DNA of 49,344 bases. Origin: an uncultured Selenomonadales bacterium (GTDB taxonomy: Bacteria > Bacillota > Negativicutes > Selenomonadales > Selenomonadaceae). The stretch lies in the NCBI GenBank assembly GCA_946411735.1, contig CAMKFB010000010.1, positions 1 through 49,344 on the forward strand. Reading direction: 5' to 3'. The translations under genes were made by a program, and so were the position numbers. This document shows, one piece after another, positions 3,172-29,536 of the stretch (within the stretch, counting starts at the first letter, position 1; each line of letters opens with the position of its first letter). The notes under the pieces are model-generated. The model ran no database searches. It was not told the DNA's origin and worked only from the letters and a program-made list of their open reading frames with translations.

Positions 3172-3178
3172 AATTTTT
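3148..3178. terminator. Bidirectional hairpin terminator
   Basis: ATCCGC (3153-3158), a 5-base loop and GCGGAT (3164-3169) form a 6-bp stem. On the minus strand it is followed by TTTTTTATTTT, a good terminator for the VOC gene; on the plus strand it is followed by AAAATTTTT. It contains one copy of the iterated palindrome and lies within the end of the methylase gene. Confidence 0.65.
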
Positions 3179-3191
3179 CTATCGGACAAAA

Positions 3192-3593
3192 TTATTTCTT
3201 GACGTACGGCTCGGCAATGATCTCGATCTCGTTGCCCTCGTGATCCGCCACCACACTCGCATAGTAACCGTCGCCCGTCCAGCGCGCGCCGCTGACGATC
3301 ATATAACCGTCGTCGCGAAGGCGCTCGGTCACCGCATCGACCGAATTGCCGTTGCCCACGCAGATCGCTATGTGGTGGTAGCCCGTTCGATAAGTGCTCT
3401 TGGGCGGATCGGTCATCGTCGGGCGCTGCATAATCTCCAGCCGCGCGCCCTCGTCGAACGTCAGAATGTAGGAGCTGAAGCCCGAATTGAAGTTGTGATA
3501 CTTCTCGCCGGTCTTGGCGTTGAAGTACTTCACGAAGAAGTCGCGCGCCTCCTCCATGTTTTTGACGTACATCGCCGCGTGCTCAATCCTCAT
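3192..3593 (-). CDS. VOC (glyoxalase-like) family protein
   Basis: A 133-aa single-module vicinal-oxygen-chelate protein with two beta-alpha-beta-beta-beta repeats. Likely metal ligands are H5 (RIEHAAMYV), the glutamate of LEIMQ, a histidine in GYHHIAI and the glutamate in GNEIEI, the pattern seen in glyoxalase I type proteins. The substrate could be methylglyoxal-glutathione-like hemithioacetals or something else; this cannot be told from sequence. It is monocistronic, convergent with the methylase and divergent from the NirJ2-like gene. ATG start with AGGCGATTGCG just upstream, a modest RBS. Confidence 0.85.
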   Translation of the reverse strand: MRIEHAAMYVKNMEEARDFFVKYFNAKTGEKYHNFNSGFSSYILTFDEGARLEIMQRPTMTDPPKSTYRTGYHHIAICVGNGNSVDAVTERLRDDGYMIVSGARWTGDGYYASVVADHEGNEIEIIAEPYVKK

Positions 3594-13883: not shown

Positions 13884-14855
13884 TTAATCGTCGAGCCAAC
13901 GTGCGGCGTCAAGTGCGTGGTAGGTGATGATGATGTCGGCGCCGGCGCGCTTCATGCACGTCAGAGTCTCCATCACGATGCGGTGCTCGTCGATCCAACC
14001 GTTTTTGGCGGCGGCTTTGACCATAGCGTATTCGCCGCTGACGTTGTAGACGGCGACGGGTCGATTGATCTGCGCGCGGACGCGTGTGACGACGTCGAGA
14101 TAAGCCATGGCGGGCTTAACCATGATGATGTCGGCGCCCTCGTCGAGATCGAGCGCGACTTCCTTGAGCGCCTCGCGAATGTTGGCGGGATCCATCTGAT
14201 ATTGCTTGCGATCACCAAATTGCGGAGCGGAATCGGCGGCATCACGGAAGGGACCGTAGAAGCCGGAGGCGTATTTGACGGCGTAGCTCATAATCGAGAC
14301 GTTGATGAGATTGTGAGCGTCGAGCGCCGCGCGGATCGCCGCGATCCGACCGTCCATCATATCGGACGGCGCAACGATGTCGGCGCCCGCCTCGGCTTGG
14401 CTGACGGCGACTTTCGAGAGCAGCTCGAGAGTGCGATCGTTGTCGACGTAATGATCGACCAGGCAGCCGCAATGCCCGTGGCTCGTATATTGACAAAGAC
14501 AGACGTCGCCGACGATAATCAGCTCGGGGACGGCTTTTTTGATTGCGGCGATCGCACGCTGTACGGGGGAGCTCATATCCCACGCGCTCGATCCGATCTC
14601 GTCTTTGTATTCGGGCAAACCGAAAATCTCAACGGCGGGGATTCCGAGCGCGGCGATCTTTTTGGCAAGCTCGACGGCTTGATCGATCGAAAGATGATAA
14701 CAGTCGGGCATCGACGGAATCTCCTCGCGCACATTCGAGCCCGGCACGACGAAGAGCGGATAAACGAAATCCTTGACGGTCAGTTGCGTTTCGCGAACCA
14801 TCGCGCGGACATTCTCCGACAACCTCAAGCGCCTCGGGCGCAATTTCATATTCAT
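13884..14855 (-). CDS. hemB: Porphobilinogen synthase (delta-aminolevulinate dehydratase)
   Basis: A 323-aa TIM-barrel enzyme joining two 5-aminolevulinates into porphobilinogen, the common tetrapyrrole precursor. The cysteine-rich stretch VCLCQYTSHGHCGC (about residues 118-131) marks the zinc-dependent type. SYAVKYASGFYGPFR and MVKPAMAYLD contain the two active-site lysines. The start ATG shares its A with the TAA of the GT9 gene upstream (TAATG), and AAGGAG lies before it, so it is the last gene of the murI-cobA/hemD-GT9 unit. A second ATG two codons later is also possible. Confidence 0.96.
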   Translation of the reverse strand: MNMKLRPRRLRLSENVRAMVRETQLTVKDFVYPLFVVPGSNVREEIPSMPDCYHLSIDQAVELAKKIAALGIPAVEIFGLPEYKDEIGSSAWDMSSPVQRAIAAIKKAVPELIIVGDVCLCQYTSHGHCGCLVDHYVDNDRTLELLSKVAVSQAEAGADIVAPSDMMDGRIAAIRAALDAHNLINVSIMSYAVKYASGFYGPFRDAADSAPQFGDRKQYQMDPANIREALKEVALDLDEGADIIMVKPAMAYLDVVTRVRAQINRPVAVYNVSGEYAMVKAAAKNGWIDEHRIVMETLTCMKRAGADIIITYHALDAARWLDD

Positions 14856-17800
14856 TAAACCACTCCTTTTTCGGGATTGAACAGCACGTATTCTTTATTG
14901 CCTTTGTCGATCTGCTCGAGAAGAGCTTTGTAAGCATCAAACATATCCTGAGGCGTGATCTGAGTGATGCAATGAGGACCGCGCGCTCGACAGCCGCGAA
15001 TGTCTTTCGAGTCGACGCACTCGGGGAGCGCATGCGCGGGGCAAATGACCACCGCCGGCACGCCGTACGGATGCCACAATTGAAGAAACGGGCTCGGTTG
15101 CCTTAAATCAAAAGGATAGCATTGCACCATTAACACCGGAATTTGAGCTGCAACCGCAATAAACACTTGACCGGTGTCGTTGCCGATATACATGTCGCAC
15201 AGGCTAAACATCGCCGCTGCCCGTCGCAATGAAAGCTTGCCCGTCAGATCGATGACGCGCTTCGGATCGACATTCTTCAGTATGATATCGGCTTCCGCTT
15301 TATCGCTCGCGCCGCCCACAATCACGAACCTCAAGTCTCTATCCGCTTCCGTAATCAAATTCATCAGCGCCGCATATGATTCCGGCGGATAATGGCTTCT
15401 GCTCGTCATCCCGCCCACGCAGATTGCATAAATTTTTTTCGATGACGGCATCAATGGTTTCACCGCATCAACATCGCTTTGATCAAACCACACTTCCAGC
15501 TGTCGCTCGACAACCTTAGCGCCCGTCAGATATTCAATGCAACTCAGCGCTTTATCAGCGGCGTGAGTGCCGACATTTTTCTGATCGACAATGTCAGTCA
15601 GCAACGGACTCCACAGTCCGCGATCGTATGATATCCTCCGCGCGGAGCCGCTCATATACGACAACAGAGAAATCGACGGGCGCCCGCCGTAAGTCGGCGC
15701 GAAACAGATGTCGTAATGCCGCGTCAAAAATTTTTTCGACAGCTGCGCGTAATACTTCAGTTTCCTGATGATGTTCGGCATATCATCGACGGTCAACTGC
15801 AAGTAGCCGCCGTGGTCGAGTTTCAACGGGTCGATGACAATCTCATCGACGTAAGGACAACCTTCGGCAAGGGTGTCGGCGCGGGAGCAGGCAACCAATG
15901 TGATGTGCGCCTTCGGATAAACGCGTCGAACTTCCCTTATCATCGGCGTCATCGAAATAAAATCGCCCGCCGCCGACTCATGCAGAATCAAAATGTTTTC
16001 GACAGTCGACTTCGACTCGCGATAGCCCGCACGCTCAAAAATCGGCTCCAAAAAATTTTTCATCTCGACGGCATCAAACCGTTGCGTCTCTTCGACGCGC
16101 CGAATGTATTGCTCAAATCCTTCCTCGACGCTCAAATCCGCTTGAGAATCCCGCTCGGGATCGAAGAGCTCATAAAAATTATTCCCCCGCTTGACCTGCT
16201 CGAGCAAAACTTTGCAGGCGTCAAACAGGTTTTGCGGCGTGATCTGTGTGATGCAATGCGGCTCGCGCGCTCGACAACCGCGATTATCTTTTGACTCCTG
16301 ACAACCCGCCAAAGCGTGCGAAGGGCATATCACGACCGACGGAACCTCGTACGGATACCAAAATTTAAGGTTGGGACTCGGACGGTTGAGATCAAGCGGG
16401 AAGCAATGAATCGCCAACACCGGAGTCTTCGTCGCCGCCGCAAGGTGCACCGTCGCCGTATCATTGCTGATGCACACATCGCATAAGCTGATCGCCGCCG
16501 CCGTCTGTCGAAAGGTCGTCTTACCGGTCAGATCGATCGCCTTCGCCGCGTCAACGTTCTCGAGCACAATTTTTGCCTCGGCGCTGTCGTTTGCATCGCC
16601 CAATATCACGAAGCCGATGTCATCCTCCGCCGTCGCGAGCAGTTTTATCAACGCCGCGTAAGATTGCGGCGGATAATGATTTTTTCGGGCGAGACCGCCG
16701 ACGCCGATCGCAAAAACTTTTTTCGTCGAAGGCATCATCGTCTTTACCGCGTCGAGATCGGTTTGATCGAACCACGTTTCCAATCGTCGATCGACAACCT
16801 TCGCGCCCGTCAAATATTCGACACAGCTCATCGACTTGTCGGCGGCGTGAGTGCCGATGCTTTTCTGATCGACGATATCCGTCAGCAGCGGACTCCACAA
16901 GCCTCTGTTATATGAAATCCTCCGCGCGGAGCCCGTCATATACGCGAGCAACGGCAGCGAAGGACGCGACCCGTAGGTCGGCGCAAAACAAATGTCATAG
17001 CGCCGCGTCAGACATTTTTTCGCGACCTCCAAATGGAATTTCAGCTTCCTAATGATGTTGGCAGTGTCGTCGACCGCCGATTGCAGACGAGCGCCGTCCT
17101 CGAGCACAAACGACTTGACGAAAATCTCATCGATGTACGGACAAAGGTCGGCAAGATTTTCGGCGCGCTTGTCGACAACCAGAGTGATGTGCGCATTCGG
17201 ATAAGCCCGCCTGATATCCTTCAGCATCGGCGACATCGAAATGAAATCGCCCGCCGACGACTCGTGCAGGATCAAAATGTTCGACGCGCTCGGATTTTTC
17301 CACTCGGGCGTGAAACGATAACCCTCTTCGTCGAAGATCGGCTCCAGCCACTCTATCATCTCGGTGCATTTGAACTCCCGGGTTTCCTCGACGTGCCGAA
17401 TGTATTCTTTAAAGCCGTCAACCACGCGCGCGGCGCCCTCGTCCTCGCTCACCGCCGTATCGCCTTCGGGATCGAACAGCACATATTTTTTATCGTCCCT
17501 GTCGATCTGTTTGAGCAAAAGTTTGTAAGCGGCGAACAAATCACGCGGCGTGATCTGCCTGATACAATGCGGTCTGCCGCTTTGACAGCCGCGAATATTT
17601 TTTGAGTCTCGACACTCGGGCAGCGCGCGGCTCGGACAAACCACAATCGACGGCACCTCATAAGGGTACCAACGTTCGAGATTGAAACTTGATCGGCACA
17701 AATCCAACGGGAAGCAGTGCAGAGTTATGAGAGGCGTTTGAGTCGCCGCCGCCAAATGCGTCGAGCCGGTGTCGTTGCCGATGTAGATGTCGCACAAGCT

Positions 17801-18751
17801 GAGCACCGCTGCCGTCTGTCGAAACGTGAGTTTGCCGGTCAAATCGATCGTGTGCGCCGCATCGATCATCGACATCACCGACGCCCCATCCTTAACCTCA
17901 CTCGGACCGCCGAGCAATACGAACTGCACCTCATCATCGGCAGCGAGAATGATGTGGATGAACTTTGCATAAGACTCCGGCGGATAATGATTTTTTGCCA
18001 GCCCACCGCCCAAGCCGAGCGCGAAAAGTTTTTGATGCGGCGGAATGAGCGCGTTGACGGCATCGAGATCGTCTTGGTTGAACCACGCCTCCAACCGTCG
18101 CTCCGTCGCGCGCGTCCCGGTCACATGCTCGACGTAGCTGAGCATTTTGTCGGCAGCATGCGAACCGTAATCCTTTTGAGGAACGATGTCGGTAAGGAAA
18201 GCAAACCACCCTCCGAACTTATGTCCGACGCGGCGGCGCGCGCCCGCCAGGTAAGCAAGCAACGGCGTGGTCGGCGCGGAGTACATGCTCGCAAAGGCGA
18301 TGTCATAGCGTCGCGCCAAAAGTTTTTCGGCGATGTCGAGCAACATCAAACCCGCGCCCGCGTAATTTTGAGGCGCGATTCCATGTCGAGAAAGGTTAGA
18401 GCCTTGAAACATGAAACCCTCGACGATCAGCTCGTCGACGTGAGGACAGCACTCGGCAAGCGCGGCGGCGTTTTGACTGACGACCATCGTGATGTGAGCG
18501 GTCGGGAAGGCGCGTCTGATCTCGCGAATGCCGGCGCTCATCGTGATGAAATCGCCCGCGCCCGCCTCGTGGAGGATCAAAACGTTTTCGACCGCGCCCT
18601 CTTGACGATAGCCCGCGCGCTCGAAAATCGGCTCCATAAAATTTTTCATTTCGGCAATATCAAGTGCCTGTTGTTCTTCGACGCGCTTCAAAAATTCCCT
18701 GCAGCCGTCGACCACAAGACCGGTGTCAGTCGCATCAACAGCTCTGTTCAA
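14855..18751 (-). CDS. Giant protein of three tandem GT9 (heptosyltransferase-like) domains
   Basis: A 1298-aa protein containing three copies of a unit of about 430 residues (roughly 1-440, 441-870, 871-1298). Each begins with a helix such as EYIRRVEETQRF, then EPIFERAGYR, NILILHESAAGDFI with a following REIRR, PHVDEL-like segments, and a C-terminal half with GND-T nucleotide-sugar site, as in GT9 enzymes that add heptoses or other sugars from ADP-heptose-like donors. Each repeat ends with four conserved cysteines. GT9 enzymes are normally single domains of 320-380 aa. TTG at 18751 was chosen because AAGGAG lies eight bases upstream; the GTG at 18760 overlaps the RBS. It overlaps cobA-hemD by 17 bp and hemB by one base. 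Acceptor unknown; LPS or protein glycosylation are options. Confidence 0.85.
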   Translation of the reverse strand: MNRAVDATDTGLVVDGCREFLKRVEEQQALDIAEMKNFMEPIFERAGYRQEGAVENVLILHEAGAGDFITMSAGIREIRRAFPTAHITMVVSQNAAALAECCPHVDELIVEGFMFQGSNLSRHGIAPQNYAGAGLMLLDIAEKLLARRYDIAFASMYSAPTTPLLAYLAGARRRVGHKFGGWFAFLTDIVPQKDYGSHAADKMLSYVEHVTGTRATERRLEAWFNQDDLDAVNALIPPHQKLFALGLGGGLAKNHYPPESYAKFIHIILAADDEVQFVLLGGPSEVKDGASVMSMIDAAHTIDLTGKLTFRQTAAVLSLCDIYIGNDTGSTHLAAATQTPLITLHCFPLDLCRSSFNLERWYPYEVPSIVVCPSRALPECRDSKNIRGCQSGRPHCIRQITPRDLFAAYKLLLKQIDRDDKKYVLFDPEGDTAVSEDEGAARVVDGFKEYIRHVEETREFKCTEMIEWLEPIFDEEGYRFTPEWKNPSASNILILHESSAGDFISMSPMLKDIRRAYPNAHITLVVDKRAENLADLCPYIDEIFVKSFVLEDGARLQSAVDDTANIIRKLKFHLEVAKKCLTRRYDICFAPTYGSRPSLPLLAYMTGSARRISYNRGLWSPLLTDIVDQKSIGTHAADKSMSCVEYLTGAKVVDRRLETWFDQTDLDAVKTMMPSTKKVFAIGVGGLARKNHYPPQSYAALIKLLATAEDDIGFVILGDANDSAEAKIVLENVDAAKAIDLTGKTTFRQTAAAISLCDVCISNDTATVHLAAATKTPVLAIHCFPLDLNRPSPNLKFWYPYEVPSVVICPSHALAGCQESKDNRGCRAREPHCITQITPQNLFDACKVLLEQVKRGNNFYELFDPERDSQADLSVEEGFEQYIRRVEETQRFDAVEMKNFLEPIFERAGYRESKSTVENILILHESAAGDFISMTPMIREVRRVYPKAHITLVACSRADTLAEGCPYVDEIVIDPLKLDHGGYLQLTVDDMPNIIRKLKYYAQLSKKFLTRHYDICFAPTYGGRPSISLLSYMSGSARRISYDRGLWSPLLTDIVDQKNVGTHAADKALSCIEYLTGAKVVERQLEVWFDQSDVDAVKPLMPSSKKIYAICVGGMTSRSHYPPESYAALMNLITEADRDLRFVIVGGASDKAEADIILKNVDPKRVIDLTGKLSLRRAAAMFSLCDMYIGNDTGQVFIAVAAQIPVLMVQCYPFDLRQPSPFLQLWHPYGVPAVVICPAHALPECVDSKDIRGCRARGPHCITQITPQDMFDAYKALLEQIDKGNKEYVLFNPEKGVV

Positions 18752-20225
18752 ATTCAACACTCCTTGTAATCGCCTCGATCAGCCCGTCGATCGTGTATTT
18801 CGTTGCGACGACCGTCGGCTCGATCCCAAAATTGCTCAGCGTATCGGCTGTGATCGGTCCGATCGCCGCCGTCTTCGCGCCGCTCAACCGCTTGACGCCG
18901 AAGCCACGAATAAAATTCTTCACCGTCGACGAGCTCGTAAACGTGATCCAATCGGCGTCCTCGAGAGCAAACTTTTCGTCGACCGCGCTCACCGTTCGAT
19001 ACGCCGCCACCACTTCCACCGACCCGCCCAATCGTCGCAACTCCAGCGGCAATATCGAGCGTGCCTCCTCCGCCCGAGCGATCAAAATCTTTTTCCCGTC
19101 GACCTTGTTGCTCAACAGTTTTATCAGAGCTTCCGCGCGGAACTCGCCCGGGACGTAATCGGCGATCAAGCCGTGCGTCCTCAACGCTTGCTCCGTCGAC
19201 GAGCCGATCGCCGCGATTTTGGCTCCGATTGAGCGAATGTCGAGTCCCTTGCCAAACAAACGCTCGAAAAATTTCTCCACGCCGTTGACGCTAGTGAAAA
19301 TGATTATATCGAACGCCGAAATTCTGTCAAGCGCTTCGTCAAGCCCCGTGTATTTGTCCGTCGGCTCGACTATCTCAATCGTCGGCACTTCGATGCACTC
19401 CGCGCCCAGCGCGCTCAATTTTTTTGTGAGCTCCGATGCTTGCGCTCGAGCGCGAGTGACGACAACTTTTTTTCCGAACAACGGTCGCGTTTCGAACCAA
19501 TTCAGGCGATCGCGCAACTTGACGACCTCGCCGACAACGAAGATCGCCGGCGGCGTGATCCCTTCGCGCTCCACATCTGCCGCCGCACGCTCGACCGTCG
19601 TCAGCAGCGTTCGTTGATTCGATCGAGTGCCGCATCGAATGATCGCAGCGGGAGTCGTCGGAGCGCGCCCGTTGTCGATCAGCCGTCGAGTGATTCGAGA
19701 AATGTTGGCGACGCCCATCAGAAAAATCAGCGTGTCGGCGCCCGTCGACAGCTTATCCCATCGAATGTTGGAGCGCTCGTCATCCATCTCATGCCCCGTA
19801 ACCACCGCAAACGATGTCGCAACCCCGCGATGCGTGACGGGGATGCCGGCATAAGCGGCAACGGCAATCGCCGAGGTAACGCCCGGGACGATCTCGAAAG
19901 GAATGTTGTGCTCGACCAGCGCAAGCGCTTCTTCGCCGCCCCGACCGAACACAAACGGATCGCCGCCCTTCAATCGAACGATGAGCTTGTCGTCGACGGC
20001 GCGCTCGATCAGCAGCCGATTGATCTCCGATTGCGGCATCGTATGATTGCCCGCCGATTTGCCCACATAAATTCTTTCGGCGTCCGCTCGAGCGTAACCG
20101 AGGATCGATTCGTCGGCGAGTCGATCGTAGATGATCACGTCCGCGCAGCGGATCAAATCCAGCGCCTTCACCGTCAACAGCCCCGCGTCGCCCGGTCCCG
20201 CCCCCACCAAATATACTTTGCTCAT
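18735..20225 (-). CDS. cobA-hemD: Fused uroporphyrinogen-III methyltransferase / uroporphyrinogen-III synthase
   Basis: A 496-aa bifunctional protein. Residues 1-245 are the SAM-dependent methylase (SUMT) with VGAGPGD and RLKGGDPFVFGRGGEE, making precorrin-2 from uroporphyrinogen III. Residues about 250-496 are the HemD synthase (VVVTRARAQASELTKKLSALGA and TSVNGVEKFF), which closes and inverts the hydroxymethylbilane ring. Such fusions are common in Clostridia and Negativicutes. This positions the gene at the branch to siroheme, cobalamin and, with NirJ1/NirJ2, heme. ATG, 11 bp after murI, with AGAGAGGA upstream. hemC and a precorrin-2 dehydrogenase are not in the window. Confidence 0.95.
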   Translation of the reverse strand: MSKVYLVGAGPGDAGLLTVKALDLIRCADVIIYDRLADESILGYARADAERIYVGKSAGNHTMPQSEINRLLIERAVDDKLIVRLKGGDPFVFGRGGEEALALVEHNIPFEIVPGVTSAIAVAAYAGIPVTHRGVATSFAVVTGHEMDDERSNIRWDKLSTGADTLIFLMGVANISRITRRLIDNGRAPTTPAAIIRCGTRSNQRTLLTTVERAAADVEREGITPPAIFVVGEVVKLRDRLNWFETRPLFGKKVVVTRARAQASELTKKLSALGAECIEVPTIEIVEPTDKYTGLDEALDRISAFDIIIFTSVNGVEKFFERLFGKGLDIRSIGAKIAAIGSSTEQALRTHGLIADYVPGEFRAEALIKLLSNKVDGKKILIARAEEARSILPLELRRLGGSVEVVAAYRTVSAVDEKFALEDADWITFTSSSTVKNFIRGFGVKRLSGAKTAAIGPITADTLSNFGIEPTVVATKYTIDGLIEAITRSVEFEQSC

Positions 20226-21105: not shown

Positions 21106-21133
21106 TTGACAACCGTTTTTTTTTTTTTATAAT
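21106..21133 (+). promoter_or_regulatory. Consensus promoter with 13-T tract, GTPase/radical-SAM operon
   Basis: Both hexamers are perfect: TTGACA (21106-21111) and TATAAT (21128-21133), separated by 16 bases. The spacer is ACCG followed by twelve T, and the -10 begins with a thirteenth T (run 21116-21128). Gain or loss of T would change the spacer length, so this promoter could be phase variable or gradually tuned (inference). The first start codon is at 21171. Confidence 0.8.
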
Positions 21134-21170: not shown

Positions 21171-22082
21171 TTGAAAGACTACGCCGCAGAGTTTCAGCGC
21201 AAGATTGATGAGATCAACGACGACTCCAAAAAAATTCTCATCATCAACGCCGGCTCGATGGATCACGGAAAGACCTCGCTGTTCAATTCGTTGCTCGATA
21301 AGGACGCCTTCAAAGCCGACGACATTCGCACGACGGTGATCTCGCAATCCGAACACTGGTTCGGTGATGTCTGGCTGGTCGATACACCCGGGCTCAACGC
21401 CGAAGAAGAGGACGATCGCGAGGCCTATGCCGCCTATCAGCGCGCCAATTTGATTGTCTTCGTGCACACCGCGAAGATCGGCGAGCTGCATCGGGCGGAG
21501 ATCAATGCCATCAATAACATCAAGTCCTTTTTCGAGGACAAAAAATTTTTTTGGGATCATTTCTGCCTGGTGATGACTTTTCTCGACGCCGATTCCGAGG
21601 ACAATGTCAACAGCATCTTGAACAAGTCGCTCGAGGACATCAAGAAACACTGCGGCGGGAACAACTTCAAGACTTTTGTCGTGTCGAATTCGCGCTATAA
21701 GAAGGGCAGCGCCGAAAATAAAAAGGTGCTCATCGCCAAGAGCGGCATCCTTCAATTTCGAGACTATCTCAAGCACAGCCTTCCGAAGTGGCGCAGCGAA
21801 AATAATTATTTCCGCGGTCAACGGATCGATCGGGAAAAGAAAAAGATCAGCGCGTTGTTGCTTTCGGAGCGGGAGAATGTGCAGTTCTCCATCGATCAGA
21901 CCGTCGCGCGGCTCAAAAAACAGCAGCAAGATTTTATCTATCGACTGGAGTCCGTCGTCGACGAGTACAACTCCAACGATATGGAGCTTGATTCGATGCG
22001 CTATCGATTGTCTTCGCTGAAAAACGATCTGTCTTCGCTCCGTCAAAACCATCAGCGGGATCGCGCGCGCTACGACGATTAG
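21171..22082 (+). CDS. Small P-loop GTPase with C-terminal coiled coil
   Basis: A 303-aa protein. The G1 loop is GSMDHGKTS (residues 28-36), close in wording to translational GTPases; IRTT (52-55) may be G2; DTPG (71-74) is G3; a clear NKxD is absent (TFLDAD near 136-141 occupies the place). Residues about 220-300 are highly charged and heptad-like, a probable coiled coil. TTG start preceded by GAGAGGAG. It is the first gene after the consensus promoter and is followed after 13 bp by the small membrane protein. It resembles dynamin-like or septin-like GTPase-only proteins; no exact family is recognised. Confidence 0.8.
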   Translation: MKDYAAEFQRKIDEINDDSKKILIINAGSMDHGKTSLFNSLLDKDAFKADDIRTTVISQSEHWFGDVWLVDTPGLNAEEEDDREAYAAYQRANLIVFVHTAKIGELHRAEINAINNIKSFFEDKKFFWDHFCLVMTFLDADSEDNVNSILNKSLEDIKKHCGGNNFKTFVVSNSRYKKGSAENKKVLIAKSGILQFRDYLKHSLPKWRSENNYFRGQRIDREKKKISALLLSERENVQFSIDQTVARLKKQQQDFIYRLESVVDEYNSNDMELDSMRYRLSSLKNDLSSLRQNHQRDRARYDD

Positions 22083-22095
22083 GGAGGCGAAAAAA

Positions 22096-22497
22096 ATGTT
22101 CATTGCGGCAGGGGCGCTCGTCGGGATCGTCGTCGCCTATGACGATTATTCCGATCATCGCAAACACTCGAATCATTCCAATCACAGCCGGTACGGCGAC
22201 GCGGAGGTCGTCAATCGAATCAATGACATGCAGCGGCGCGTTAACAGTCAGGAGGCGGAAGTCAATCGGACGCGCAATTGGATGCAGATGAATTATCGCG
22301 AGCAGATCGATCAGCTCAAGCGGGAGAAAAATTATCCGGCGCTTTCGGGCGCTTCGATGTACAATGTCGTCTCCTCGGTCAAGGCGAATATGGAGCAGGA
22401 GCTCGAAAACAGCATTGCACAGAAGCGTCGGGAGCTCGCCGACATCGATCGGATGATTGCGCGGATCAACGAAATCGAATTGCAGGCGAAGAGGTGA
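22096..22497 (+). CDS. Small membrane-anchored coiled-coil protein, 133 aa
   Basis: Residues 1-15 (MFIAAGALVGIVVAY) form a short hydrophobic N-terminal segment that could anchor or insert in the membrane. Next comes a His/Ser/Asn/Asp-rich stretch (residues 16-35, with HSNHSNHSR), then about 95 residues of charged helix rich in Q, R and E, a likely coiled coil. No family recognised. AGGGAGGCG upstream of the ATG; it lies between two GTPase genes, 13 and 7 bp away, so it is probably a partner of theirs, for example a membrane tether (inference). Confidence 0.75.
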   Translation: MFIAAGALVGIVVAYDDYSDHRKHSNHSNHSRYGDAEVVNRINDMQRRVNSQEAEVNRTRNWMQMNYREQIDQLKREKNYPALSGASMYNVVSSVKANMEQELENSIAQKRRELADIDRMIARINEIELQAKR

Positions 22498-22504
22498 GCG
22501 ACAA

Positions 22505-24292
22505 ATGAATTACATCGTCAGCACGGTCGAAGAATTTATGTCGAAGCTCGACAGGTTGAAGGGGAAGCTGGCGCCGTTTTCGCAAGAGATCGATCAACGG
22601 AGCGATCAAATTCCGGCGTTGCTCGATAATTTCAAGCGGCGGGTGTTGGAGCCGACGGCGCGATCGGCAAAAGCCGACGAGCATGACGAGGTCGCGCAGG
22701 CGATCAATAAGTCGCTCGAAAATCTCAAAATGATCGTCGAAGGCTGGGATAATCAAATTCAAATCGAGCGCGAGGCAGAAAAATTTCAGCGCAAGCATCA
22801 GCAGTATTTGGTCGTGCTGATCTTCGGGGCGGTCAAGGTCGGCAAGAGTACTCTTGGAAATTTCTTCGCCGGTCAAAAATTTCTCGACGCGCCGTTTGAC
22901 AATCCGTATAAGCATATCGCTCCGCCGGCATTTGAGATCGAAAACGACGAAGGGCGCGCGGAAGGCAATCTCTATCGCGATGAGCGAGGGTATTCATGGT
23001 TTAAGGAAGACGTCACGGACACGACCGGCGCGATCCAATATTTTACGCTGAGCGGCTTGCGTTGGTTTGATTCGCCCGGCACCGGCGCGGTCAAGCGCAA
23101 AGGCGACACGGAAGGCATCGAGGTCGCCAAGCTCGTCGACAAGTACATTCCGTACGCGGATATGTGCATTTTTTTGATGAACAGCTCCGAGCCGCTCCTG
23201 CGAGACGATATGGCGTATATGCAGTCGCTCAACGAAAGTGAGCAGGAGTCGCTGATCGTTGTGACTAAGTCCGACGAGCAGGATGAGGATGAGGATGACG
23301 ACGGCAATCTGATTCAAACGCTGGTGCCGAAATCGGAGGAGACGCGTAAAAAGCAGGAGGACAGCGCCTGTGAGAGATTGCGGAAAGAATATCCGAAGAT
23401 CGACGCGACGAAATTTCGAGCGATGAGCATCTCGACGGCGCTTGCCGGTGCGGCGATCAAAGAAAACGACGAAGAAAAATTCCGCGCGAGCAATCTCGAC
23501 AAGATCATGAAGAAGCTCGTCGAAAAGATCGGCGATATCGACGAAGTCGGCGGCGACAATGCGGTCGAGCGCAAACGGAACGCTCAACGCAAGCATTTTA
23601 ATAAGTTTATCGACGACGTTATCAAGAGCCTTGAAAAATTTGAGCCCGATCTCGATGAGATTCCGCGCGCCATCGAAAAATATAAATCCGAGATGGGGCG
23701 CATTTCGGAGCGAATAGTGAGGAACGTCTTGCGTGAGGTACGCGTCGAAGTCGGCTATCGCGTGAGCGATTGGGAAGCGCAAGTCAATCGCGGCTCGAAC
23801 GTCGGCAATTCGGAGATCAGCGCTGCCGTCGAAAACATTTTGCATCAGAAACTGAATCAGGAGATCAACAATCAGATGCGCAACGTGATCGACGGTTACC
23901 AAGCGCAGGAAATGACGACGGTGCGGGCAAATTTGTCGGTCACGGCGCTGGCGAAACAAACGGTTACGATTGAGCGAAGCTACGACGAGCAATACAAGGT
24001 CGAGCGTCCGCCGAAGGGTTTTTGGGAGAATGTCAACAGCTTTTTGGGCGCCACATACTACGAAACTAAGACGCGACGGCGGACGGAGTCTCGAACGATG
24101 GACGTCGGCACGAATCGCGAGGAGTTCATTGACAGTCTTATGCCGAAGGTCGAGGCGTATGCGCGGGAGCAGGCGAATGCGAGTCTGATCAAGTTGCGCG
24201 ATACGTATTTTGCGGCGCGCGAGATTTTCGAGAAAAAGATGCGCGTCGAGATTGCAAATCTCCGTCGGGAATTGCTTGCGCTGAAGAATTGA
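22505..24292 (+). CDS. Dynamin-like GTPase, 595 aa
   Basis: A long GTPase. Residues 1-100 are helical; G1 is GAVKVGKST (108-116), a G2 threonine lies in DVTDTTGA (169-176), G3 is DSPG (189-192) and G4 is TKSD (254-257), followed by an acidic insertion (DEQDEDEDDDG). The C-terminal 250 residues are predicted helical with coiled-coil character. This layout (helical bundle, G domain, helical stalk) resembles bacterial dynamin-like proteins; no strong transmembrane segment is evident. ATG at 22505 with AGGTGAGCG upstream; a frame extension upstream overlaps the previous gene. Ten bases separate it from the next radical-SAM gene. Confidence 0.85.
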   Translation: MNYIVSTVEEFMSKLDRLKGKLAPFSQEIDQRSDQIPALLDNFKRRVLEPTARSAKADEHDEVAQAINKSLENLKMIVEGWDNQIQIEREAEKFQRKHQQYLVVLIFGAVKVGKSTLGNFFAGQKFLDAPFDNPYKHIAPPAFEIENDEGRAEGNLYRDERGYSWFKEDVTDTTGAIQYFTLSGLRWFDSPGTGAVKRKGDTEGIEVAKLVDKYIPYADMCIFLMNSSEPLLRDDMAYMQSLNESEQESLIVVTKSDEQDEDEDDDGNLIQTLVPKSEETRKKQEDSACERLRKEYPKIDATKFRAMSISTALAGAAIKENDEEKFRASNLDKIMKKLVEKIGDIDEVGGDNAVERKRNAQRKHFNKFIDDVIKSLEKFEPDLDEIPRAIEKYKSEMGRISERIVRNVLREVRVEVGYRVSDWEAQVNRGSNVGNSEISAAVENILHQKLNQEINNQMRNVIDGYQAQEMTTVRANLSVTALAKQTVTIERSYDEQYKVERPPKGFWENVNSFLGATYYETKTRRRTESRTMDVGTNREEFIDSLMPKVEAYAREQANASLIKLRDTYFAAREIFEKKMRVEIANLRRELLALKN

Positions 24293-24301
24293 GGCGCGTC
24301 G

Positions 24302-25444
24302 ATGCAGATTATATTGAAGTTGACGACGGCGTGCAATCTGAGGTGTTCGTATTGCAGTGAGGGCGATCAAGCGCTTGAGCGAATGCCGGAGGAAATTTTT
24401 TATAAGACGGTCGACGAACTGCCGGCGCTACTCGACCACGTCGGCGCGAAGTCGGCGGAGTTTTTGTTTCACGGCGGCGAGCCGATGCTCTACGGTCGAG
24501 AGGCATTGAAACGGCTGATCGATTACGCGCGCGCCGGATTGACGGATTACGATGTAAAGTTTCTGATGCAGACCAACGGTACGCTGATCGACGACGACTG
24601 GATAAAATTTTTCAGGGCGGAGGAGATCGGCGCGGGCATTTCGCTTGATGGTTATCCCGAAATTCATGATCAATGCCGTCGAACGAAGGACGATCGACCA
24701 ACGGCGGAGCTCATCATAAAAAATATCGATCGGCTCCGCGCGGAAGGGCTGAATGTCGGGACGCTGATGGTGCTCAACTCTGCGGTCAATGCAGATCGGC
24801 TGTATGACTTCATTCGCGAGCACAACCTTCAGCCGAAAATACACCCGGTGATTGCGTGCGGTCGCGCGCGCGGGCATGAGAATGTCTGCGATGCTTACGT
24901 CGGAGTGATGAAGCGGCTGCTGGCGCGGGCGTTGGACGAAGAAGAGCCCGGGATCATTCAGCCGCTCGACGAAATTTTCAATGCGATCCTCGGGCTTGAG
25001 CCGATGCGGGAGTGCTCGTATAACGGCAGTTGCGGGCGAAATTTTGTCTGTATTTATCCCGACGGGGAGGTCGGATTTTGCGGGCGGGACAATGCGACGC
25101 GGCACTTGACGTACGGCAATCTTCGCGAGCAATCGATTTTGGAGTTGTATCGCTCGACCAATGCCGAAAAAATTCGGGCGCGGCAGGAGCATCTTCGTCG
25201 AAACGATTGCGCGGGATGTTCGGATTGGGAGTTGTGTCATGGGGGCTGTGCATTTGAGGCAGTCAACGCCTTCGGCACGCTCGAGGCGAAGTATCCCGAT
25301 TGCGCCGCGCGGAAAAATTTCATAGGTTGGTTGCGAACGGACGGCTTGAGAATGTTGAAGGCGAAGCTCGTGCGCGACAAAATCAGACTTCGACAATCAA
25401 TCGCGCTCCAAAAACAGCTGCGCGCGGAGTTAAAAGATTTATGA
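24302..25444 (+). CDS. Radical SAM protein with SPASM-type domain
   Basis: A 380-aa radical-SAM enzyme. CNLRCSYC (C11, C15, C18) is the SAM-cluster motif; FHGGEPM the GGE motif; ISLDG is typical of the sulfatase-maturase/peptide-modifying branch. The C-terminal part has CSYNGSCG, VGFCGR and CAGCSDWELCHGGC, a SPASM domain with two auxiliary clusters. Such enzymes usually modify peptides or proteins (anaerobic sulfatase maturation, RiPP maturation). No sulfatase or obvious short precursor is encoded nearby, so the substrate may be an operon partner. It is inside the GTPase operon and overlaps the following radical-SAM gene by ATGA. Confidence 0.88.
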   Translation: MQIILKLTTACNLRCSYCSEGDQALERMPEEIFYKTVDELPALLDHVGAKSAEFLFHGGEPMLYGREALKRLIDYARAGLTDYDVKFLMQTNGTLIDDDWIKFFRAEEIGAGISLDGYPEIHDQCRRTKDDRPTAELIIKNIDRLRAEGLNVGTLMVLNSAVNADRLYDFIREHNLQPKIHPVIACGRARGHENVCDAYVGVMKRLLARALDEEEPGIIQPLDEIFNAILGLEPMRECSYNGSCGRNFVCIYPDGEVGFCGRDNATRHLTYGNLREQSILELYRSTNAEKIRARQEHLRRNDCAGCSDWELCHGGCAFEAVNAFGTLEAKYPDCAARKNFIGWLRTDGLRMLKAKLVRDKIRLRQSIALQKQLRAELKDL

Positions 25445-27177
25445 CAGACATAGTGTTTTTGAATTTGCATCGACGGTACTTTAATTTTGAGCCGACCTAC
25501 GGCGGTTTTCTCGGGATATATTTGCTCGCCGCCTTCGTTCGTCGTCAAGGATTCGACGCGAAAAGTTTTTCCGGCACTCTCGAACGCGGGCTGACGATTA
25601 TCGACGAACTTTGCTCCGCGCGGAGCGTCGCGATGGTCGGATTGTATTGCGATTTCGAGAATGTCACGGAAAATATTTTTTTAAGCCGTCACATCAAAGA
25701 GAAATACGGGCTGCCGGTGATCGTCGGCGGTCCTCAGGCGACGGCGCTCGATCAAAAATTTTTTACGCAATCGAAATGCGACGCGGTCGTTCGATACGAG
25801 GGAGAATTGACCGTGCTCGAGCTGATGGATTACTTCCTCGACGAGGTCGGCGCGCTCGAAAACATTCGCGGCATTGCTTATTCGACGGTCGACGAGATCA
25901 AGATCAATCCCGAGCGCCCGCTCATAAAAAATCTCGACGCGCTCCCTTTCATCGACGAGGACTGTTATCTCGAGCCGGAGCATTTTTATCGCGGCTTGAG
26001 TTTGATGACGGGGCGGGGCTGTCCGTTTCGTTGCGCGTTTTGCCACGAGGGGACGCATACTCGCGCCGTCCGCTTCCGATCGATTGAAAACATCTTCGCT
26101 GAGATCGATGCTTATCTCGAACGTTGGCGGGCGCAAAAAGATGATGAGCCGCTGTACATTTTTTTTACCGATGACACTCTGACGCTCGAGCCGAATCGTT
26201 TGCGACGGTTGTGCGAAGGGCTTGCCGTGCGCCGAAAAAATTTCGAGTTCAATTGGTTTTGCGAAGGGCACGTTCACACGCTGTATCAAAATCCCGAGAT
26301 GATCGAAGCCCTTGCCGCCGGCGGTTGCTATCGTATTCAATTGGGGATCGAATCCGGCACGGACAAAGTCCTCCGAGCGTATGGAAAGCATTCGACGCCC
26401 GAAGAAATTTTGGCGGTTGCCCGCCGCTGTCGAGACGCGGGCATCAAACAGGTTTACGGCAACATCATTTTATGCGGCGCGCATTTCGATCGGGCGATCT
26501 TTGAAGCGGAAAAACAATTCGCCTTGCGACTTATCGAAGAGGGAGAAGGCGTCGTCGAGATCGGAGCCGTGACGTATTGGCCGATCGCCGAGACTCCGAT
26601 GACGCGTCGCCCGACGGAATTCGGCTTGAAAATCATCGACGAAGAATTTCTCACTTCTGCGGGAGATTTTCCGCAAGTTGAAACGGACGAGCTGGATCGC
26701 TTGACGATCGTCGGGATGCATAATGAATTTGAGCGAGCGCTCGACGACAAAATGACAGAGCTGCTCGAGAACCGACGGATTCCGACGGAGCGAATAATCG
26801 GTTGGCTGCGACATTCGCGCGGATTTTATTTGCAAGGCGCGTGGAGCAGGAAATTGAGTCGGCTGCCGATTTTGAGCGCGTACTACGGCTTGATCGCGAA
26901 CGACGAGGGACGGCATTCGTCGGAGATCGATGATCTGTCGACGGCGCATCCGTTGCGAGTCGTGCCGCTGTACAGACATATCCGCTCGATCGACGAAAAA
27001 GTTATCGAAGTCGGCGGCGAGCGGCTCATCGGTGAGGAAATCGATGTATTACTGCTGACGACGGGGAAATTGAGCGTCGCCGGGATCGCCGTTCGATTGC
27101 ACTTGTCGATTGAGCGCGTGGTCGAGGTGTTGCTCCGCCTCGAACGTCGGCATTTTATTGTATTTGAATTGCATTGA
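25441..27177 (+). CDS. Radical SAM protein with N-terminal B12-binding-like domain
   Basis: A 578-aa protein of the class B radical-SAM shape. Residues 1-150 resemble the Rossmann-like cobalamin domain (YGGFLGIYLLAAFVRRQGF, VIVGGPQAT, RYEGELTVLELMD), but the cobalamin-ligating DxHxxG motif is not visible. CPFRCAFC (C194, C198, C201) is the SAM-cluster motif. A winged-helix-like end (GKLSVAGIAVRLHLSIERVVEVLLRLERR) closes the protein. The ATG overlaps the previous stop as ATGA, and gene 27190 follows after 12 bp. Function unknown. Confidence 0.85.
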   Translation: MTDIVFLNLHRRYFNFEPTYGGFLGIYLLAAFVRRQGFDAKSFSGTLERGLTIIDELCSARSVAMVGLYCDFENVTENIFLSRHIKEKYGLPVIVGGPQATALDQKFFTQSKCDAVVRYEGELTVLELMDYFLDEVGALENIRGIAYSTVDEIKINPERPLIKNLDALPFIDEDCYLEPEHFYRGLSLMTGRGCPFRCAFCHEGTHTRAVRFRSIENIFAEIDAYLERWRAQKDDEPLYIFFTDDTLTLEPNRLRRLCEGLAVRRKNFEFNWFCEGHVHTLYQNPEMIEALAAGGCYRIQLGIESGTDKVLRAYGKHSTPEEILAVARRCRDAGIKQVYGNIILCGAHFDRAIFEAEKQFALRLIEEGEGVVEIGAVTYWPIAETPMTRRPTEFGLKIIDEEFLTSAGDFPQVETDELDRLTIVGMHNEFERALDDKMTELLENRRIPTERIIGWLRHSRGFYLQGAWSRKLSRLPILSAYYGLIANDEGRHSSEIDDLSTAHPLRVVPLYRHIRSIDEKVIEVGGERLIGEEIDVLLLTTGKLSVAGIAVRLHLSIERVVEVLLRLERRHFIVFELH

Positions 27178-27189
27178 AAGGAGATCGAC

Positions 27190-28947
27190 ATGAACGAACT
27201 GAAGGATTATCAGAGCATCTTGAGCGAGCACGGTGCTCGAGCGGAAAAAATTTTTGAGAGGCATCCCGAGGCGTCGAAGGATTTTAAGCGGCATTTCGAC
27301 GAGATCACGAACGAAAAAATCCGCAAGGTCGAGCCGACGATAATGGTGTACGGCATCTACAATGCGGGCAAGAGCAGCATCATCAACGAGTTAATCGGCG
27401 AAGACAGCGCGCCGGTCGAGGACATTCCCAAGACTTCCAAAATCGACCGGTATCCTTGGCGCGGATATGTCCTCTTCGACACGCCGGGGATTCTGGCGCC
27501 GATCGAGCACGAAAACGTGACGGAGGAGCATATCAAGAAGGCGGATATAGTCCTTTTCGTGATGAGCACGACGGGCTCGAGTGAGAAGCTCGAGAATTAC
27601 GCGCGCATGAAAACGATTGCCGACTCCGGAAAGAAAATCATCATCATTCTCAACGATAAGAACGGCGATTTGGGCGTCAACGACGCGGCGATCGAAGAGA
27701 TCAGGCGCAAGGTCGGCGAGAACATGACGAAGTTGCACATTGACAATGTCGATGAAAAGTATTGCATCATCACGGTCAACGCGGCGCGGGCGCGCAGGGG
27801 GCGGCTCAAGAATAAGCCGGGGCTCATTCAAAAAAGCGGCATGCCGGAGCTGTCGACGGTCATTCGCAACGAGCTCAAAAATACGAAGACGTTTTATCTT
27901 CTTTGCAACGGTATTCGGCTGTTGGAAGAAGAATTGGAGCAATTTGCGGACGTGATTGAGCGGCAGAACGATTCGGAGTCGGCGGATAAAATCAATCGGG
28001 CATTGCGGGCGCTCAATCGGCAAAAAAATTTAATGCGGCGCGATATCAACACTCTGATAGACTCGCAAACGCAGAATTTGAGTCAGACGCTGCCGAAGTT
28101 GATCTGGACGAATCGGACGAAAACCGATCAGATTGACGGGATTGTTTCGCGCGAGATCAATCGGATCACGCGGCGCGTTTATGACGAGTTTCAAAGTCAG
28201 TGTGAGGATCTGCGTGAGCTCAACACCGACGTGGAGCAGGAGATAAAAAATTTTGCGGCGGAGAAGGCAACGCTCAACGCCGTCGACGCGGGCGAGTTTA
28301 AAAACATTTTGGCGCGACTCGATGGCGGGACGGCTCCAACGCGGAGCGGAAGCACTTCGACGGATATGATTCCGCTTGTCATGCAGAATATGCTCGACGG
28401 CGGAGCGATGAAAAATATCGACAACGTAGCGAATGTCGGTACGGTCGGATTGACGGCGGGGCTGGTCACCGAGGGCACGAAGGAACTTGCCAAGAGTTTC
28501 GTCAAGACGGAGATCGGCAAGACGATTGCAAAGTCGGCGATCGGCAAGGTCGTCGGCTCGGTGATTCCGATTGTCGGTCCGGTGATGACGGCAATCAGTC
28601 TGTTGAAAATGTTTGGGGGCGGCGACAACGGCAAGCAGCTCGATGCACAAATCGCTCAACAGAATGCACAAGCTCGACAGCAAGCCGATGCACAGATGAA
28701 AGCGGAAATGCAGGCGCGGCAGGAGATCGAGCAGCGTTGCTATTATATGGCGGGTGATCTTGCCGATAAACTCAAGGATTCGCTCAAAGACAGCATCGAC
28801 GAGGCGATCGGTATGTACGAGGCGCCGTACAAAGCAGTCATTGCCGAGCGGCGAAACGATAATGAGCGGCTGAGCGATGATGTTGCGCAACTTCGCGCGC
28901 TCATCGACGAATACAAGGCTCTTCGCGTTGAGCTCGGAGCCCGCTGA
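27190..28947 (+). CDS. Dynamin-like GTPase with hydrophobic paddle-like segment, 585 aa
   Basis: G1 is GIYNAGKSS (55-63), a possible G2 threonine in PKTSK (80-84), G3 DTPG (97-100), and NDKN (155-158) at G4. After a long helical region, residues around 440-480 contain a glycine- and hydrophobic-rich stretch ending VGSVIPIVGPVMTAISLLKMF, like the membrane-inserting paddle of LeoA and other bacterial dynamins. Then comes a Gln/Ala-rich coiled coil (QIAQQNAQARQQADAQ). ATG with AAAGGAG upstream. It is the last gene of the six-gene unit and its 3' end overlaps convergent queH by 47 bp. Confidence 0.87.
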   Translation: MNELKDYQSILSEHGARAEKIFERHPEASKDFKRHFDEITNEKIRKVEPTIMVYGIYNAGKSSIINELIGEDSAPVEDIPKTSKIDRYPWRGYVLFDTPGILAPIEHENVTEEHIKKADIVLFVMSTTGSSEKLENYARMKTIADSGKKIIIILNDKNGDLGVNDAAIEEIRRKVGENMTKLHIDNVDEKYCIITVNAARARRGRLKNKPGLIQKSGMPELSTVIRNELKNTKTFYLLCNGIRLLEEELEQFADVIERQNDSESADKINRALRALNRQKNLMRRDINTLIDSQTQNLSQTLPKLIWTNRTKTDQIDGIVSREINRITRRVYDEFQSQCEDLRELNTDVEQEIKNFAAEKATLNAVDAGEFKNILARLDGGTAPTRSGSTSTDMIPLVMQNMLDGGAMKNIDNVANVGTVGLTAGLVTEGTKELAKSFVKTEIGKTIAKSAIGKVVGSVIPIVGPVMTAISLLKMFGGGDNGKQLDAQIAQQNAQARQQADAQMKAEMQARQEIEQRCYYMAGDLADKLKDSLKDSIDEAIGMYEAPYKAVIAERRNDNERLSDDVAQLRALIDEYKALRVELGAR

Positions 28948-29536
28948 AAAATTTTTTGCGTCGCTTCCTCCACTCGGCGCTGAATCGTTCTTCCTCGCTG
29001 AACACGCAGCCGCAATAATTTTGTTGGTACAGCCCGCGCTCGATGCTCAACTCTCGCCCGCGCTCCCAGCCGACACGCCAATCCTCATAATAAAATTCCA
29101 CGCCGTATTGTCGAGCGAACGCCTCCGCCATCGACCGCATCAGCTCATGATTTTGATAGCGACTGTAGAACAGCGTCGAGGTGAAGGCGTCGAAATTATT
29201 TTCCGCCGCATACTCCGCCGTCCGACCCAGCCGCCACGCATAGCACACTCGACAACGCGCGTGATGCCCGTCGGGATTTTGTATCGTGTCGTCGTCGTCG
29301 ATCAGCGGCAGCGTTCTCGACAGAAATTCCCTCATCCCGTAGTGATTGTCGACGATCAGCTCGATCCCGACCGTCGTCGCAAGGCTCCGCGCGGAGCTCA
29401 ACCGTCGTCGCCACTCCTCGTACGGGTGAATGTTCGGATTGAAGAAAAAGCCGATCGGCTCAACGCCCTCGGCTTTTAATTTTTCCGTCGGATAACACGC
29501 GCACGGTCCGCAACACATGTGCATAAGTAATCTCAT
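28901..29536 (-). CDS. queH: Epoxyqueuosine reductase QueH
   Basis: A 211-aa enzyme (former DUF208) that reduces epoxyqueuosine to queuosine in tRNA, a non-cobalamin alternative to QueG. Cysteine pairs CCGPC (residues 8-12), CRVCY (about 96-100) and YCGCVF (about 172-177) are its iron-sulfur and metal ligands. Start ATG with AAAGGAGCTTGC upstream. Its end overlaps the GTPase gene on the other strand by 47 bp; divergent from the transketolase. It completes the queuosine pathway also represented by queC at 8590. Confidence 0.93.
   Translation of the reverse strand: MRLLMHMCCGPCACYPTEKLKAEGVEPIGFFFNPNIHPYEEWRRRLSSARSLATTVGIELIVDNHYGMREFLSRTLPLIDDDDTIQNPDGHHARCRVCYAWRLGRTAEYAAENNFDAFTSTLFYSRYQNHELMRSMAEAFARQYGVEFYYEDWRVGWERGRELSIERGLYQQNYCGCVFSEEERFSAEWRKRRKKFFSGLRAQREEPCIRR

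Follow-up and report, generated by a model that had tools for sequence, protein, structure and literature searches.

Eleos systems are composed of LeoA and LeoBC. A passage of PMC11811056 counts Eleos as a dynamins-like defence system, and part of PMC4159319 presents LeoABC as studied for secretion and ties LeoA to vesicle secretion. Most known cases of radical S-adenosylmethionine (radical-SAM) crosslinking come from small natural products. The usual features of a triceptide precursor are a leader, a C-terminal core, and neighbouring export or protease genes. According to a portion of PMC11002830, SPASM radical-SAM triceptide enzymes link residue i to residue i+2, forming cyclophanes: YxdB makes a Tyr-Asp bond, HaaB a His-Ala bond, YhhB bonds from Tyr or His to Arg, and the dynobactin enzyme a bond between Tyr and His, two residues apart. 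Here we describe a six-gene operon (genes A to F) that combines LeoA- and LeoBC-like GTPases with radical-SAM enzymes. It lies in a 49,344-nucleotide stretch of DNA, the window, from an uncultured Selenomonadales bacterium (contig CAMKFB010000010.1 of assembly GCA_946411735.1, forward strand).

The open reading frame (ORF) listing of the window places all six genes on the plus strand, with intergenic distances of 13 bp (A-B), 7 bp (B-C), 9 bp (C-D), -4 bp (D-E, an ATGA overlap) and 12 bp (E-F). This agrees with an earlier note on this DNA, which had described six genes on one strand with gaps of at most 13 bp and one ATGA overlap. The features are as follows:

21106..21133, plus strand: putative sigma-70-like promoter, TTGACA-16-TATAAT, matching the consensus at 12 of 12 positions
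21171..22082, plus strand: gene A, 303-residue small GTPase with a TTG start, AIG1/GIMAP-like and LeoA-like (Pfam, PADLOC)
22096..22497, plus strand: gene B, 133 residues with a hydrophobic start, a (Tyr/His)-x-x repeat and a coiled coil; proposed substrate
22096..22140, plus strand: B residues 1-15, hydrophobic start rich in Gly, Ala, Val and Ile
22138..22200, plus strand: B residues 15-35, tandem repeat of the triplets YDD, YSD, HRK, HSN, HSN, HSR and YGD; proposed target of D
22201..22494, plus strand: B residues 36-133, coiled-coil part (coil by reading only) with the conserved end ARINEIELQ
22505..24292, plus strand: gene C, 595-residue dynamin-like GTPase, LeoBC-like (Pfam, PADLOC, motifs)
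24302..25444, plus strand: gene D, 380-residue SPASM radical-SAM enzyme; proposed crosslinking enzyme
24332..24355, plus strand: CxxxCxxC radical-SAM motif of D (C11, C15, C18), invariant in 12 aligned rows
25441..27177, plus strand: gene E, 578-residue B12-type radical-SAM enzyme, with weak winged-helix matches in its C-terminal part
26020..26043, plus strand: CxxxCxxC motif of E (C194, C198, C201), invariant in 14 aligned rows
27190..28947, plus strand: gene F, 585-residue dynamin-like GTPase, LeoA-like; the second half contains a hydrophobic stretch

We favour, with moderate confidence, a reading of these sequences in which A, C and F form a LeoABC/Eleos-type machine, D and E modify the juxtamembrane stalk of B, and modified B stays in place as the machine's anchor. 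The inference that D modifies B is strong; the type of bond, the reaction of E, the permanence of B and the trigger are proposed less firmly. After translation, B would insert into the membrane by its hydrophobic start, and D would act on the tandem (Tyr/His)-x-(Asp/Asn/Arg/Glu) triplets that adjoin the membrane, most probably by bonding the aromatic ring at position i to the beta-carbon at position i+2, which would give three-residue cyclophanes. E would add a further modification to B, probably C-methylation, and B would be neither cut out nor exported. The modified segment may serve as a stiff, protease-resistant spacer between hydrophobic anchor and coiled coil, a place taken by poly-Ser in relatives without radical-SAM enzymes. 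Such a hardened stalk would keep the coil at a fixed distance, where A, C and F could assemble and, on a trigger, remodel or seal the membrane. We suggest that the whole is an accessory system that moves horizontally and probably serves in phage defence or against membrane damage. A more specific version, to which we give somewhat less than an even chance, is that RiPP-type radical chemistry (RiPP, ribosomally synthesised and post-translationally modified peptide) builds a permanent structural part, with up to seven cyclophanes and a B12-dependent decoration turning a flexible spacer into a rigid lever or strut.

The tandem (Tyr/His)-x-x repeat of B reads YDDYSDHRKHSNHSNHSRYGD, and B is alone among the 124 window ORFs of at least 100 residues in having five or more tandem [YHW]xx units. 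The earlier note had called B a hydrophobic-start coiled coil; the hydrophobic start stands (15 residues), and the plain coiled coil does not, the repeat having been overlooked. All 13 B proteins compared share a three-part layout of hydrophobic start, (Tyr/His)-x-x run, and coil with a conserved end. In their cores, 71 pairs of aromatic residues are spaced i to i+3, versus 25.5 ± 3.6 after shuffling (0 of 20,000 shuffles were as high), and spacings of 1, 2, 4, 5 and 7 fall under chance level. The cores are related to each other, those of L021 and L023 being nearly identical (L, G and C numbers are our handles for loci, genomes and contigs), so the three-residue periodicity reveals a pattern under constraint and does not count as 13 independent events. 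Two copies were left out of this set: a second B paralogue at L026, which has no repeat, and the G278 copy (L070), with the same core as L041. The 94 aromatic-x-x triplets begin with Tyr in 51 cases, His in 42 and Trp in one; the middle residue is Ser in 49, Gly in 15 and Asp in eight, with others making up the rest; and the third is Asp in 41, Asn in 16, Arg in 13 and Glu in nine. B thus has the aromatic-x-x motifs of a triceptide substrate, and the signal is weaker for single proteins: when the 30-residue stretch was shuffled in each of ten B proteins, between 0 and 633 of 5,000 shuffles were as high, with eight proteins at 59 or fewer.

B also varies in copy and length. Locus L026 (6252-7159) has two B copies in tandem, and at L022 (6502-7047) a longer B has an end that looks C-like by eye, as though part of C had been copied onto it. 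A PADLOC match of the window's B, to Cas12c at 15 bits, was taken as chance.

Enzyme D exceeds the Pfam cut-offs for both Radical_SAM and SPASM, and a SPASM radical-SAM gene accordingly stands near the proposed substrate gene, with a single gene between it and B in the usual order. Its best NCBIfam scores are for DynA (190 bits, cut-off 450), anaerobic sulfatase maturase (150 bits, cut-off 349) and YhhB (139 bits, cut-off 445), so we rejected all three as equivalogs of D. The best PADLOC match is to pVip, the prokaryotic viperin (55.5 bits); it is confined to residues 4-175, the radical-SAM core, and was read tentatively as shared superfamily membership; the SPASM domain is over its Pfam cut-off. 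With a threshold of 1e-30, D was found in 12 of 149 genomes (the window's own and relatives), always beside other genes of the module, and at 1e-45 only in the own genome among 398 sampled from the phylum. Two weak charge patterns were given no weight: the D tail is basic in 10 of 12 rows (two are cut short by a late Cys), and the B coil is negative in eight of 11, that of the window's own B being +2.

Enzyme E exceeds the Pfam cut-off for Radical_SAM and stays below that for B12-binding (27.4 versus 32.1). Together with the matches of D, this upholds the earlier description of two radical-SAM enzymes, one of SPASM type and one of B12 type. The best RiPP model for E is ApyD, at 97.5 bits, far under its cut-off of 750, so E is not an ApyD equivalog; the hopanoid model HpnJ scores 98.9 bits, and the best PADLOC match is PDC-M51A at 28.9 bits. 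ApyD itself yields beta-methyltyrosine, according to a passage of PMC10635010. We rejected as weak a PqqD/RRE-type domain at the C-terminus of E, where winged-helix matches are all below cut-off and no PqqD match was found.

At 1e-100, E occurs in 19 of 379 class genomes: 15 with the module, three (G017, G057, G067) next to PDC-M09-like genes, and G313. In G313, two tandem E relatives, 37-39% identical, lie between two NHLP-leader precursors and NHLM export genes (L189:6558-15409), and four ORFs with E matches (27-33%) surround a Nif11-leader precursor (L190:88-9240); the precursors, exporter and HlyD protein scanned there all exceed NCBIfam cut-offs. Relatives of E, in the broad sense of the RiPP-type B12 radical-SAM family, therefore adjoin RiPP precursors in one genome, which places E in a family that includes enzymes acting on ribosomal peptides. 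On plasmids, a search with E at 1e-20 gave one distant match only.

The three PDC-M09 loci (L188:5223-9847, L045:7114-11734, L042:1556-5925) consist of PDC-M09-like candidate defence genes followed by the E homologue, with a small CxxCxxCC protein between them in two of the three. Two of these loci were scanned with PADLOC; both matched M09A and one matched M09B. The link to the third locus comes from blastp. Around E, L042 has no [YHW]xx run of at least four units and L188 none of at least five. At L045, a 505-residue plus-strand ORF (1676-3193) contains HICYYGYGRWRGHMK, distant from E, and runs on the other strand are chance. M09A was matched in 30 of 290 genomes, and 22 of the 30 loci fetched were compared. 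The idea that E acts on a Gly/Ala/Val-rich hydrophobic start common to B and M09A found no support, since 19 of the 22 M09A homologues have the same kind of start and no E (absence being judged within about 1.5 kb, and less at contig ends). One alignment column alone separates the three with E from the 19 without.

All three GTPases carry recognisable motifs: GSMDHGKT and DTPG in A (with TFLD where G4 is expected), GAVKVGKS, DSPG and TKSD in C, and GIYNAGKS, DTPG and NDK in F. C and F both exceed the Pfam cut-offs for Dynamin_N and MMR_HSR1, which puts them in the dynamin superfamily, while A exceeds those for MMR_HSR1 and AIG1 and falls just short for Dynamin_N (26.9 versus 27). Among A homologues, Pfam matches at 0.001 were found to AIG1 in 10 of 11 and to Dynamin_N in 11 of 11. 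The PADLOC LeoA profile matches F at 128 bits and A at 54 bits, and the LeoBC profile matches C at 38 bits; these are matches to single profiles, which come without curated cut-offs. The claim of three GTPases, two dynamin-sized and one smaller, is thus confirmed by motifs and Pfam. The own genome has 12 Dynamin_N matches, three of them on the window contig (C10) and nine on contigs C8, C11, C27, C43, C46 and C55; on C27, two ORFs (595 and 693 residues) are weakly F-like.

The genes travel together. At 1e-25, C was found in 18 of 380 class genomes: 11 have all six genes together (G000, G003, G010, G021, G049, G056, G065, G147, G219, G266, G346), five are cut by contig ends (G008, G019, G026, G048, G278; in G026, C is on a different contig from D, E and F), G035 has intact C and F with fragmentary D and E, and A and B past the contig end, and G074 has A, C and F only. 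A locus under two identifiers was counted once. In G003 the order is D-E-A-B-C-F, so the linkage has outlasted rearrangement. At 1e-20, C was found in the own genome alone among 398 sampled from the phylum. A search of genome contigs with E found carriers among Selenomonadaceae and Selenomonadales metagenome-assembled genomes, several of them ruminant and one named Selenomonas ruminantium, and among isolates Anaerovibrio lipolyticus An883 and Veillonella caviae DSM 20738; 12 of the 14 loci from this search are the module or a cut part of it. At one locus (L065:7168-8505), D and E appear as separate fragments while C and F are open, which could be a decaying copy or assembly errors.

Up to three flanking ORFs per side were compared at 16 loci, several of which are one-sided at contig ends, and nine loci share no gene with any other. 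Two flanking genes are common to L021, L024 and L026, and single ones are shared by L022/L065, L021/L066, L028/L065 and L022/L026 (26% identity). The block therefore occupies several distinct sites and appears to be mobile as one unit. Being kept across genera and families, and once reordered, its clustering is more than chance. The earlier note had proposed one operon, to be doubted if the homologues rarely co-occurred elsewhere; the gene layout and conserved linkage bear it out, and within the limits set by contig ends the genes co-occur in 17 of the 18 genomes of the class that have C (G035 having D and E in fragments).

Relatives that lack the radical-SAM genes serve as natural controls. 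In G074, whose stated completeness is 100%, locus L067 has retained A, C and F and has no B, D or E. Throughout G074, the D profile scores at most 72 bits and the E profile at most 35 (677 and 1009 bits in the own genome), and B gave no match in a search that had no positive control of its own. The G074 A is 686 residues long, versus 303. In the C tree, L067 is nested with the six-gene modules L044, L068 and L069 (support 97/96), which suggests joint loss of B, D and E if the root is on the proteobacterial branch.

More distant relatives were found on plasmids. A tblastn search with C matched 31 plasmid records of Klebsiella, Raoultella, Citrobacter, Acetobacter and Photobacterium, and a search with the Raoultella C matched 37 records, 29 of them at 99% or more (Klebsiella and relatives). 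The two A-B'-C-F records that were opened, from Raoultella (L160) and Photobacterium (L162), have the order A-B'-C-F, B' being a small hydrophobic-start protein between A and C, and no D or E match occurs within 16.9 kb (Raoultella) or 13.0 kb (Photobacterium). By profile score, A, C and F of both records are orthologues of the window's genes (in Raoultella, C at 159 bits, F at 229 and A at 106), so the A-C-F set also exists in Proteobacteria, in keeping with the earlier remark that bacterial dynamins work as partners. Between its hydrophobic start and the remainder, B' has a run of eight Ser in Raoultella and 13 in Photobacterium, and no tandem (Tyr/His)-x-x was found in either. B' and B have no detectable sequence similarity, so we equate the two by place, size and layout. 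On Acinetobacter and Diaphorobacter plasmids (L164:4532-7401, L165:4454-7323, L163:4613-7461) there are also two-gene pairs of a GTPase and a dynamin (A- and C-like), in or beside catechol/benzoate catabolic genes, a setting that hints at a membrane-stress role for these GTPases.

How D treats the repeat is the first matter on which other explanations differ. D could be a sulfatase-maturase-like oxidase of the Ser in Tyr-Ser-x and His-Ser-x, giving formylglycine or similar and no cyclophanes, with B still the substrate. By sequence, the solved structures nearest to it are those of anaerobic sulfatase-maturating enzymes (148 bits), it scores 150 bits against NCBIfam sulfatase_rSAM, and Ser is the middle residue of 49 of the 94 triplets; however, DynA scores higher (190 bits) and YhhB about the same, and the middle residue is often not Ser, while an aromatic residue in every third place is the constant feature. 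We consider Ser oxidation improbable. About as improbable is that D and E act on the GTPases or on some other molecule (a lipid or small molecule), with B an adaptor whose repeat binds metal or membrane. His/Tyr-rich repeats could indeed bind metals, and E also occurs with PDC-M09-like proteins and no B. However, G074 lacks B, D and E jointly while A, C and F remain, orthologues of A, C and F exist without radical-SAM genes, and the repeat fits the radical-SAM target motifs given in the cited part of PMC11002830.

The fate of B separates our preferred reading, a retained anchor, from that of an ordinary RiPP precursor whose repeat is modified, excised and exported as a bioactive peptide, the GTPases serving export or immunity. 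The latter would suit the NHLP and Nif11 clusters of E's relatives and the link of LeoA to vesicle secretion (in part of PMC4159319), yet the repeat sits between the hydrophobic start and a conserved coil. No peptidase or transporter is found among the six genes, which are the same in 11 complete modules (flanks were not surveyed for exporters), and the A-B'-C-F orthologues keep the B layout without the enzymes, all of which points to a structural rather than a secreted product. We rate an exported peptide as less probable again than Ser oxidation. As for the genes being neighbours by chance, or independent units, internal promoters could lie beyond the reach of consensus scans, but the linkage is conserved across families and in varied chromosomal settings, one copy being reordered, and the only plus-strand promoter-like site listed between 20,900 and 29,200 (21106-21133) precedes A. 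This possibility we regard as very remote. The perfect TTGACA-16-TATAAT ends 37 bp upstream of A; on both strands there were six promoter-like sites versus 5.3 expected from shuffles, so we put weight only on the perfect match.

Several observations count against the anchor reading. D and E are under every NCBIfam equivalog cut-off shown, and in three genomes E accompanies PDC-M09-like proteins at loci that have neither D nor B; the failure of the hydrophobic-start idea for E (19 of 22 M09A proteins without E and with a similar start) belongs here too. B has no recognised leader, and its repeat is on the N-terminal side, with 98 residues after it, unlike usual RiPP cores; the short leader, C-terminal core and export or protease genes of triceptide precursors are not found. 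In the 11 homologues measured, the hydrophobic start of B spans 13-18 residues, fewer than a full membrane helix would usually have. Single-protein periodicity is weak at L026 (633 of 5,000 shuffles as high) and L030 (168 of 5,000), and the second B paralogue at L026 has neither hydrophobic start nor repeat and keeps the coil part. The joint absence of B, D and E is seen in one genome, and the F tree leaves the placement of L067 open. The poly-Ser contrast comes from two B' proteins that are dissimilar in sequence to B, and an Acetobacter plasmid has a C-F pair without adjoining A or B. Finally, of 27 pattern matches to C in viral contigs none was confirmed, and the Raoultella C had no match in phages.

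The same viral searches led us to reject a viral origin, together with those for D, which has only distant radical-SAM relatives there: in viral contigs at most 35% best-segment identity (best 80 of 109 loci), and in phages 39 records, all below 60% identity (25.9-28.9% among the matches listed). Searched as DNA, the Raoultella C had no match in E. coli genomes. The PADLOC Leo profiles, the patchy distribution, the shifting neighbours and one relative among CRISPR genes associate the module with defence: on a Photobacterium toruni plasmid (L162:4615-9310), A-B'-C-F lies between Csm6/Cas1/Cas2 and RAMP CRISPR genes. A WYL-domain gene adjoins the module at L069. Membrane stress fits the module too. 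Of the functions first suggested (defence, membrane repair, and modification of lipid or protein), the evidence now most favours protein modification, with B the candidate target, and defence stays an association.

Elsewhere in the window, the 3' end of F overlaps a convergent ORF (28901-29536) by 47 bp (28901-28947); that ORF looks QueH-like. On the minus strand, a 1301-residue ORF (14855-18760) appears by eye to comprise three similar copies of about 430 residues, presumably of glycosyltransferase type. No Rfam family reached its gathering score between positions 18,000 and 32,000.

If our reading holds, the module would found a new class, radical-SAM-tailored dynamin systems, in which peptide-antibiotic chemistry supplies a permanent component of a cell machine, and it would add a covalently hardened anchor to dynamin-like systems tied to bacterial defence. 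We know of no cellular role for the Hxs His-x-Ser repeat proteins. Here, a (Tyr/His)-x-x protein stands beside three GTPases and has poly-Ser counterparts in operons free of radical-SAM genes, so the purpose of the modification is directly testable.

The locus resembles LeoABC/Eleos in being a multi-GTPase operon with LeoA and LeoBC profile matches and a membrane anchor (LeoC has one, according to part of PMC4159319). It differs in having three complete GTPases, with the motifs of C and of F each in a single chain, where the known system has LeoA and a split LeoB/LeoC, and in having a separate anchor protein with a (Tyr/His)-x-x repeat and two radical-SAM enzymes. In the two A-B'-C-F plasmid operons opened, A, C and F are orthologous, the order is the same, and a hydrophobic-start protein lies between A and C, but there is no D or E match and poly-Ser takes the place of the repeat.

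With the triceptide systems (XncB, OscB, YxdB, HaaB, YhhB), as far as the cited part of PMC11002830 describes them, the locus shares a SPASM enzyme next to a protein with Tyr-x-Asp and His-x-Arg motifs. Unlike them, it has a 133-residue hydrophobic-start coiled-coil substrate in a GTPase operon, without classical leader or export genes, and D is below the YhhB and DynA cut-offs. Hxs (His-Xaa-Ser) systems likewise have two radical-SAM genes by a His-x-Ser repeat protein, HxsB and HxsC being so named in a passage of PMC9062424. Scores argue against membership, with D at 73 bits against HxsB (cut-off 370) and B at 16 against HxsA3 (cut-off 65); one of 11 B members matches HxsA3 at all, and E is of B12 type. 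E matches ApyD and has relatives in NHLP and Nif11 clusters, as expected of B12-dependent RiPP methyltransferases, but the six genes include no NHLP or Nif11 precursor. The PDC-M09 candidate defence genes have the E gene in common with the module in three genomes, and those three loci have no match to the A, B, C, D or F profiles. The earlier view of the pairing as unusual still holds. The GTPases are related to those of known systems, and the proposed chemistry also belongs to a type already described. Judged by title, the open-access papers searched yielded no dynamin/radical-SAM system and no union of the two with a (Tyr/His)-x-x anchor.

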